64,000 nt of DNA from Stenotrophomonas maltophilia (GTDB lineage: Bacteria; Pseudomonadota; Gammaproteobacteria; Xanthomonadales; Xanthomonadaceae), in assembly GCF_023518235.1 (NCBI RefSeq), contig NZ_CP090423.1, forward strand, positions 2,294,001 to 2,358,000, in the 5' to 3' direction. Positions 49,041 to 50,627 of this stretch are shown here, one piece after another; position 1 is the first letter of the stretch; each line of letters opens with the position of its first letter. Under the pieces are notes generated by a model. It was not told where the DNA came from. It did not search any database and saw nothing but the letters and a program-made list of their open reading frames with translations. The position numbers and the translations under genes are program-made.

Positions 49041-49405
49041 GGCGGGGCTCCAGAGTGGATGGGCGCGGCAATGGGCTGAGACTACGCCTGCCCGAGGTGG
49101 TGGGACAGCGCAGGGATGGAATCCTCTGCTCTCATGGATGGCACATTCGGTAGGGCCACGCCGGATGACGTGATTGCCACGTGGAGACGACCGTCGAGCG
49201 GCGCAATCCGGTTCAGGCGCGGGCGGCGGGTTGCGCCATGGAGGATGGGGCGCACATGGAGCGAGTGCTGGGCTGCACAGATCCGGAAACGCCGGCTCCT
49301 GCCGGGCGTACTTACAACTTTCCTCACTGACTTCCGTGTTTGCACGAATCGATGATCGCCTCGCCGAGGCAGGTTGCCTTGGTCGGGATTGGCGTCTCGA
49401 ATAAA
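49041..49405. other. Non-coding stretch before the structured RNA candidate
   Basis: No gene is supported; the open frames here have no family resemblance and no start signal. A promoter for the structured element downstream could lie here, but no clear -35/-10 pair was found by eye. Confidence 0.5.
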
Positions 49406-49580
49406 CGAACAAGCTTCAAGGCCTGCGAAATCAATCGCAGCTGAGAGAATGCACCGACTGCCGTCAATGGCGGACGGTGCGTGGGGATCGCAAGATCCGC
49501 CAGGCGTTCTTCTCCCTTGAAGCTTGTTTGCCTTGGTACGCCAACCCGCACCGTCCGCCACCTTCGCTTCGGAAGGTGGC
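49406..49580 (+). ncRNA. Candidate structured RNA/leader with competing pairings
   Basis: A 16-bp outer stem (CGAACAAGCTTCAAGG at 49406-49421 with 49515-49530, one G-U) encloses three hairpins: CTGCGA/TCGCAG (49423-49440), an 11-bp stem with one A-A mismatch (49451-49480), and GGATC-GCAA-GATCC with a GNRA loop (49485-49498). The strand 49468-49481 can instead pair perfectly over 14 bp with 49547-49560. That partner runs into a hairpin (49557-49580, 9-bp arms, possible UUCG loop) 23 nt before the next start codon. This looks like a switch or attenuator leader, or a free-standing RNA. The class is not recognised. Confidence 0.6.
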
Positions 49581-49603
49581 TTCATGCCAGTGAGGGTTTC
49601 GCC

Positions 49604-50011
49604 ATGACCAACCGCACCGCCGTCCATCCCCGCCTCTACGCTCTGATCGGCGACATCGCCGCCGACGTGCCCGAGGACCTCGCACGCGAGATCGAGTGCG
49701 CTTTGCACGAACAGCATCTGCCCGTGCAGTCGCCTGCCTTCTTCTCTTGCCTCAATGCCATCAACCGCGCCGACGGCGATGACGGACAACCGTGCAGCAG
49801 CCTCACCCTTTGCGCCAGCAATCACGCCTCGCTCCGCCGCTCGCTGTCCGGGCTCAGTGCATTGCTCGACCTGCTGCAGGCGGGCGATCGAGCGCGCGCC
49901 GAGGGTGGCGCGGGCCAGCAGTTGGGTGCCTTCCACACTGATGGACTGATCGTGGCCGCGCGACAACTGGTGCGCGAGGCGCATCACTGCCTCTCCGGCG
50001 GCGAGGCCTGA
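49604..50011 (+). CDS. Hypothetical protein behind the structured leader
   Basis: The 135-residue protein begins MTNRTAVHPRLYALIGDIAAD and is helical, with several short acidic segments, cysteines at residues near FFSCLNA, PCSSLTLC and HHCL, and no catalytic motif. No family is recognised. The ATG follows the hairpin at 49557-49580 by 23 nt, in a context suggesting control by the upstream RNA. A second unknown gene lies 52 bp downstream. Confidence 0.7.
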   Translation: MTNRTAVHPRLYALIGDIAADVPEDLAREIECALHEQHLPVQSPAFFSCLNAINRADGDDGQPCSSLTLCASNHASLRRSLSGLSALLDLLQAGDRARAEGGAGQQLGAFHTDGLIVAARQLVREAHHCLSGGEA

Positions 50012-50063: not shown

Positions 50064-50627
50064 ATGGACGCCGAACACCTGGAGTACTTCAAGGCCGCAC
50101 TGGAAGGCCGCGCAAGCGTGGGCTGGAACGTGTGGTTTGCCGCCAACCAGCAGGCGCTTTCGCAGCAGTTGAGCCGCCCTGCGCTGCTGCGGTTGAAGTT
50201 CAATCAGCTAGATGAAGCCGAACGCCTGCTGGCCGAGGCAGGCATCGTGCCCGCCAGCACGGCGGGCAAGCGCTACGAGATGTACTGCGCACAGTTCGCA
50301 CTGGACGTGCTGGATGAAAAAGGCCGGCCACTGCCGGCCATCTGGCGCGCGGCGCATGGCGGTGCCATCGGCCTGCTTGCCGATGGCGAACATGAAGCGG
50401 GCCAGGCGAAGCTGCTCGCGGAATTCCGCCGCGTCCGCAAGCGCGGGCTGCAGCAGGCCCACGAATGGTTGGCCGATCTGTGCTTTGAAGGCGAGATGGA
50501 GCTGACCAGCGGCAATGCCGAGGTGGGCCGTAGTCTGTTGGCGGTGGTGGTGCAGGCCGGCAGCGGCCACGACCTGCTGGATGCTACGTCGATGATCGCG
50601 CGGGAGCTATTGGACGAACACGGCTGA
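50064..50627 (+). CDS. Hypothetical helical protein
   Basis: The 187-residue protein (MDAEHLEYFKAALEGRASVGWNVWF-like start) is predicted all-helical, with leucine/alanine-rich segments that might form tetratricopeptide- or Sel1-like helical hairpins (GKLLAEFRRVRKRG, AHEWLADLCFEGEME). A GGGAGCGCAGGAGG ribosome-binding region precedes it. The function is unknown. It is followed by a bidirectional terminator shared with tRNA-Val. Confidence 0.72.
   Translation: MDAEHLEYFKAALEGRASVGWNVWFAANQQALSQQLSRPALLRLKFNQLDEAERLLAEAGIVPASTAGKRYEMYCAQFALDVLDEKGRPLPAIWRAAHGGAIGLLADGEHEAGQAKLLAEFRRVRKRGLQQAHEWLADLCFEGEMELTSGNAEVGRSLLAVVVQAGSGHDLLDATSMIARELLDEHG

Follow-up and report, generated by a model that had tools for sequence, protein, structure and literature searches.

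A chromosomal relative of the phage antisense RNA C4 as a likely self-targeting regulatory module upstream of a small-gene family in Stenotrophomonas

We analysed a 64,000-nucleotide stretch of Stenotrophomonas maltophilia DNA (the window; coordinates without a locus or genome label are window positions), in which positions 49385-50011 likely constitute an autonomous, self-targeting and individually insulated antisense autoregulation module of the C4 type. By its sequence, the folded RNA at the core of this module is related to the antisense RNA C4 of phage P1 but encoded in the chromosome, and the best reading of the whole set of copies is that a module of phage immunity has come to serve a chromosomal gene family.

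The RNA lies in a gene-free gap of ~560 bp, bounded by a tautomerase gene on the - strand, whose start is close to 49040, and by the following ATG at 49604. A sequence-only reading had described here a 16-bp outer stem enclosing three hairpins, one of them closed by a GNRA loop, together with a competitor strand and a final hairpin, and all of these elements are present at accurate coordinates. Folding of 49380-49610, the check that this reading had proposed, gave a minimum free energy of -115.6 kcal/mol on the + strand versus -80.4 (s.d. 4.4) in 200 dinucleotide shuffles, none of which equalled the real fold (z = -8.0); the - strand also reached z = -6.27, so the strand is not provable from the fold alone. 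A cmscan search of the whole window returned two families over their cutoffs, a tRNA and the C4 antisense RNA (RF01695), the latter at 49463-49565 on the + strand (full-length match to model positions 1-87, with 53.4 bits against a cutoff of 45). The RNA belongs to the C4 class by this covariance-model score over the gathering cutoff; the class, which had gone unrecognised, is thus a known one, and a free small RNA had been among the options named at the time. In the phages, C4 is an RNA of ~77 nt released by RNase P. In the P1 operon, the a1/b1 site is located 5' of C4 and a small gene immediately 3', and a second C4 target, not part of the Rfam definition, covers the downstream ribosome-binding site. 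In the window, the a' and b' segments of C4 are complementary to a1 and b1 located upstream on the same strand, which is the complementarity that marks members of the class.

All of the elements were placed on the + strand. The leader target a1 (49406-49421) forms 16 bp, including one G-U, with the C4 specificity segment a' (49515-49530), which is the 3' strand of the outer stem; read from the sequence, this stem would be the antisense part of C4 paired to its leader site. A second long-range pairing, absent from the sequence-only reading, connects b1 (49385-49395, GGGATTGGCGT) with the conserved antisense segment b' (49538-49547, ACGCCAACCC). Between a1 and C4 lies a hairpin at 49423-49440, followed by an anti-C4 hairpin (49451-49480, left strand 49451-49462) that includes the 5' strand of the C4 stem P1 (49468-49481). 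This P1 strand begins with GG and is a perfect 14-nt complement of the P1 3' strand (49547-49560), the former "competitor". C4 also contains an inner hairpin with a GCAA (GNRA) loop at 49485-49498. A further hairpin (49557-49580) overlaps the end of P1 and lies 5' of an SD-like GTGAGGG read from the sequence (49590-49596), after which the small gene (49604-50011) encodes a protein of 135 a.a. that belongs to no known family and is called family 1 here. The C4 P1 fold and the a1b1:a'b' fold are mutually exclusive, in agreement with the competing stems proposed earlier. No sigma-70-type promoter was found at the window copy, and a scan of all copies gave a site with at least 8 of 12 matches in 35% versus 19% in shuffles, a signal too weak to place the transcription start. 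The Rfam model of the leader targets, c4-a1b1 (RF03163), had no match in the window up to E = 1 and is therefore under its gathering cutoff there; the genome's 12 further copies that were scanned also scored too low (listed for two, best 26.4 of 46.7), and the isrK model was not listed at the window copy or at the other scanned copies of the genome. A P1-type c4-icd-ant immunity operon, which would call for a prophage context and an antirepressor gene, was considered and rejected: the neighbours, which encode a TonB receptor, DUF2946, the tautomerase, PilZ, DNA polymerase III delta', thymidylate kinase and YceG, are of the housekeeping kind, and no family in Pfam, NCBIfam or PHROG matched the downstream gene product at E <= 0.001.

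This genome contains 15 C4 matches, 12 of them over the cutoff. When the flanks were read, 13 copies showed the order b1-a1, C4, SD and small ORF, including the more compact copy C780908 (43 bits). The remaining two matches (L013 and L014; G000:C1:2570567 and 1295991) are 116-nt inverted repeats with neither leader nor gene; they match the C4 model weakly, have counterparts of the same length in two other genomes, and are probably an unrelated palindromic repeat. C4 matches occurred in 39 of 61 Stenotrophomonas genomes, with a maximum of 26 per genome, and in 28 of the 149 genomes of a family sample (27 over the cutoff); the 23 C4-bearing family genomes outside the genus had one to four matches each. 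For the comparisons below, we used this genome and six others picked for high copy number, which are hence not a random sample. These seven genomes contain 133 matches (15 here and 118 elsewhere), from which five 116-nt matches of 31-35 bits were excluded, the two of this genome upon reading that they lack leader and gene and the other three by length and score, leaving 128 copies. Across the copies, the gene mostly starts 26-48 nt 3' of C4, and 122 of the 128 have a GG[T/C]GGC or GGTGG motif after C4. Separately, a GC-rich hairpin at L009:1615-1712, with sub-cutoff matches to two unrelated microRNA models, is possibly a repeated extragenic palindrome.

Covariation was evaluated in an alignment of orthologous leaders of the window locus. 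Of 28 such loci, 27 have retained at least one of two neighbours, the tautomerase gene and the gene at 50064 (17 have both), and the removal of L123, where leader and C4 are absent, left 27 loci for the alignment. In the a1:a' helix, 11 of the 14 counted pairs had changed on both sides and 82% of the cells remained paired, which is the opposite of the uncompensated breakage of the outer stem that the sequence-only reading had named as evidence against itself; the recurrence and covariation that it had predicted for homologous loci are both present. The b1:b' pairing is invariant (10 of 10 pairs) and therefore uninformative in this respect. Pairing was retained in 95.7% of cells for the hairpin between a1 and C4 (6 pairs), 100% for the inner hairpin, 99.2% for the hairpin 5' of the SD (9 pairs) and 97.3% for the anti-C4 hairpin (11 pairs, no two-sided changes). 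Over the 128 copies, the anti-C4 hairpin reached -19.5 versus -14.7 kcal/mol in shuffles, and was better than 95% of the shuffles in just 31% of the copies. P1 was 96% paired at the window locus, where a single position lacks pairing in 14 of the 27 loci, and all of its 13 positions are standard pairs in 93-100% of the 128 copies; P1 is thus backed mainly by the Rfam score and the paralogues, whereas a1:a' is backed by real compensation.

We then compared, for each of the 128 C4 copies, the a'b' duplex with its own leader and the duplexes with all leaders of the same genome. The own leader was the best partner in 106 copies, where ~7 would be expected, and 22 copies did not favour it. The longest Watson-Crick run between a' and the own leader had a median of 8 and was at least 8 in 74 of the 128 copies, versus 1.4% of shuffled leaders. 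The 95 nt 3' of C4 gave no cognate signal (own region best in 10 of 128 copies, ~7 expected; the window copy ranks 12th of 13 for its own downstream region), and a C4 target at the ribosome-binding site was rejected on this basis. In 26 loci outside the seven genomes (23 in other genera and 3 in Stenotrophomonas), the own leader ranked first in 6 and the downstream region of the same copy in 5, with ~1 expected; a' is short in these loci, mostly of other genera, which makes the test weak on both sides, and the specificity for leader over downstream region is accordingly shown only for the seven genomes. Reciprocal cross-reactivity (95% threshold) was found in none of 1167 within-genome pairs and in 33 of 6961 pairs between genomes, a rate that predicts 5 or 6 for the within-genome set. 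These counts suggest, at the level of predicted pairing, that the modules of one genome avoid cross-talk, in a comparison that falls short of proof because likely orthologues and copies with weak pairing are among the hits between genomes.

In the autoregulation that we favour, a single transcript would carry the b1-a1 targets, then C4, and then the small gene. C4 would be released from this transcript by RNase P, by analogy with P1 and P7, and would pair in trans with b1-a1 of new transcripts from the same locus. Expression of the small gene would thereby be lowered, most likely through premature termination in the untranslated leader, as for P4 CI/seqA. In a transcript not bound by C4, the own a'b' would be captured by a1b1, leaving P1 unformed and C4 unreleased, and the anti-C4 hairpin would sequester the P1 5' strand as long as a1b1:a'b' is paired. 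Equilibrium folding of 121 of the 128 copies, which is thermodynamic and not co-transcriptional, gave a mean P1 probability of 0.13 with the own leader (<0.5 in 108 copies) and 0.72 when a1b1 was blocked, with 86 of 121 copies crossing from below to above 0.5. When the leader came from a different module in that genome, the mean was also 0.72 (<0.5 in 23 of 121). The SD was unpaired at 0.34 versus 0.29 between the two folds, a rough figure since some of the ORF starts used were in the wrong frame (99 family genes with these starts, versus 105 over three frames). An SD-occlusion switch is unsupported, as the pairing of the SD hardly differs; this near-constancy, together with the absence of a C4 target at the ribosome-binding site, is the reason for preferring leader termination over a block of ribosome binding.

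A further-reaching proposal, which we regard as doubtful, is that each module is an RNA-based bistable memory, in which private a/a' codes are traded as cassettes and the small proteins serve as growth-controlling (toxin-like) effectors. In a cell without C4, each transcript would trap its own a'b', none would be released, and the gene would stay on; in a cell with C4, the RNA would fill a1b1 of new transcripts, whose own C4 would then fold and be released, making the off state self-sustaining. If this is true, the 13-26 modules per genome would represent many independent heritable RNA switches.

It is unlikely that C4 in this set is a free trans-acting small RNA with mainly unlinked mRNA targets, its leader complementarity being a relic of the phage operon or an RNA buffer. 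Such a role has been proposed (PMC5320573) for the multi-copy C4-like RNAs of Acinetobacter baumannii, whose processed C4 parts are strongly expressed, but the concerted change of a1 with a' (11 of 14 pairs) and the preference for the own leader (106 of 128 copies) are features that a relic would not maintain.

The mutually exclusive folds would also fit a purely cis-acting attenuator or ligand riboswitch, whose stems answer a metabolite or transcription/translation without any released RNA, yet this is very improbable: the RNA matches a known antisense RNA, the pairing of the SD is nearly unchanged, and what varies is the a1/a' pair, while C4 itself is the one conserved element that could pass for a ligand-like core. 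No Rfam riboswitch exceeded its cutoff in the window, and no reverse transcriptase was detected by Pfam among nine proteins encoded at 45.8-53.9 kb, as a retron msd would have led one to expect. From the interpretation first given to this fold, the structured RNA with exclusive pairings stands; a retron and a ligand riboswitch are unsupported, the latter being conceivable as an undescribed class, and the class that had not been recognised is C4.

The small gene, which C4 is presumed to regulate, is under purifying selection, with a median dN/dS of 0.26 for the 135-a.a. protein (287 pairs, 25 loci). Family 1 is located behind 105 of the 128 C4 copies and a second family (~82 a.a.) behind 7, and the other 16 copies have another or no recognisable gene. 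It was found in 9 of 200 genomes of the order, 8 of them in Stenotrophomonas. Searches of Pfam, NCBIfam and PHROG gave nothing for the window protein at E <= 0.001, and the best Pfam E-value among its 12 paralogues was 0.0098. Membership in DUF3077, considered from the UniRef name of one homologue, was dropped because no Pfam match was obtained; this search had no match in any genome either and so carries little weight. The structure model of the window protein (pLDDT 70, pTM 0.43) had no PDB match at E <= 0.001, that of a paralogue is helical (pLDDT 80, pTM 0.56), and no PDB sequence relative was convincing (best E 0.058); the models are helical and led to no informative relatives. In L123 and L132, the leader, C4 and the 5' part of the gene are jointly absent at the orthologous position, leaving a 3' remnant of the gene. 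At the C4 copy L201 (G003:C23:89496), an N-terminal part resembling the window protein is fused to an HI1420-type addiction-antidote domain (PF21716). At L093 and L147, two C4 copies of one genome (G005:C1:462731 and 3011321), the genes behind C4 are nearly identical to each other and represent a third family of small proteins (130 a.a.).

The specificity segments vary as a unit. Five a1/a' alleles were distinguished among the 27 loci, and clusterings by a1 only and by a' only agreed with an adjusted Rand index of 0.81, the best of 2000 permutations reaching 0.23. Allele sharing does not depend on the closeness of the genes: alleles were shared in 4 of 15 pairs with at least 90% protein identity and in 30 of 125 pairs with <60% (325 pairs, 26 of the 27 loci, as for protein identity in the Mantel tests below). 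L109 and L110, for instance, encode proteins that are 97% identical, and their 30-nt windows containing a1 and a' are 43% and 53% identical, respectively. In Mantel tests, a1 was correlated with a' (0.81), the spacer (0.79) and the P1 5' strand plus inner hairpin (0.62), versus -0.04 for protein identity, 0.00 for the 5' flank and -0.08 for the 3' leader; locus pairs are not independent in any of these cassette statistics. Protein identity tracked the 5' flank (0.37, p = 0.006) and failed to track the 3' leader (0.16, p = 0.15), so that the cassette is not alone in varying independently of the gene. The simplest reading of these sequences is that a unit of ~130 nt between the invariant b1 and b' is exchanged between strains, and fast coordinated mutation of the paired segments may instead underlie the variation. 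The numerous dispersed copies, the cassette-like exchange and the remnants might recall a mobile or selfish DNA repeat with incidental folding and passenger ORFs, but the uniform layout (gene start mostly 26-48 nt after C4), the compensatory pairing, the purifying selection on the gene and the neighbours kept in 27 of 28 loci make this explanation very improbable.

Twenty-five C4 loci from 23 genomes of other genera were read, and in 8 of them C4 is directly followed by a SymE-like gene, seven by Pfam PF08845 (L054, L056, L058, L059, L061, L070 and L078) and L077 by near identity to L058; a SymE-family gene also occurs as the second gene at L069 and, within Stenotrophomonas, at L046. The SymE gene starts 42-48 nt after C4 at L054, L056, L058, L059, L061, L070, L077, L078 and L046. 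This arrangement suggests that C4 may act there as an RNA antitoxin of SymE-family toxin genes, and it is the one hint that the modules might be type I toxin-antitoxin systems. Among the C4 loci of other genera, L065 has a BRO-N gene and L073 a Rha-type phage regulator gene. Of 20 loci scanned, most of them from other genera, 8 had isrK and/or c4-a1b1 matches over the cutoff just 5' of C4 (c4-a1b1 in 4, isrK in 6). In one locus, L064, two C4 modules are arranged in tandem (1391-1583 and 2259-2457), each with an isrK-model leader.

Previous work places C4 in phage immunity and, for A. baumannii, describes free RNAs without a known target. Here the presumed target adjoins C4, and therefore the RNA-target pairs can be read from the sequence in more than 100 copies. 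The set comprises naturally evolved antisense pairs that share one cell without reciprocal cross-pairing at the threshold used, and its specificity cassette seems to recombine between the invariant b1 and b'. The diversification of antisense specificity thereby becomes testable, and a whole family of RNA regulators with private codes is made available. The C4-module explanation may extend to small RNAs that lie 5' of symE genes. C4, c4-a1b1 and multi-copy C4-like RNAs are already in print; we found no paper on the Stenotrophomonas set, the gene family, the cognate insulation or the cassette exchange, a weak negative as most subscription journals lay outside the search.

Compared with C4 of phages P1 and P7, the modules share the P1 stem and inner hairpins, the a'/b' segments, the upstream a1/b1 site and a small downstream gene; they differ in being chromosomal, in many copies among housekeeping genes, with a family 1 gene rather than icd/ant. 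For P1 C4, PMC12197685 and PMC5320573 describe a block at the ribosome-binding site, whereas no second target was detected at the downstream site here; RNase P release in P1/P7 is quoted in the latter source, and PMC8546580 contains short notes on P1. The c4-a1b1 motif, listed by Weinberg et al. 2010 (PMC2864571) and described in Rfam as "a1, b1 targets of C4 antisense RNA", shares the leader targets 5' of C4, although the scanned copies here miss the Rfam cutoff. In P4 CI with seqA/seqC and in Salmonella Gifsy-1 IsrK (PMC4825925), a processed antisense RNA likewise has an upstream target in the same transcript, processing being presumed in our case; for CI/seqA, the outcome described there is transcription termination, and unlike P4 with its seqC, no downstream seqC-like site was detected in our 128 copies. 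Another small RNA directly 5' of a SymE-type gene is sRNA-Xcc1, which lies upstream of symE in Xanthomonas integron cassettes, where a 2025 study suggests a divergent regulatory mechanism (PMC12444791), and for which Northern and RACE data exist (PMC2996969). In SymE/SymR (PMC1891008), SymR is encoded antisense to its target, unlike C4, which lies 5' of the SymE genes. The A. baumannii Group 1 C4-like small RNAs form a similarly large multi-copy chromosomal set with a variable a', and were proposed to be free small RNAs (PMC5320573); in the Stenotrophomonas modules, by contrast, the cognate site adjoins C4 and most copies carry a gene of one family.
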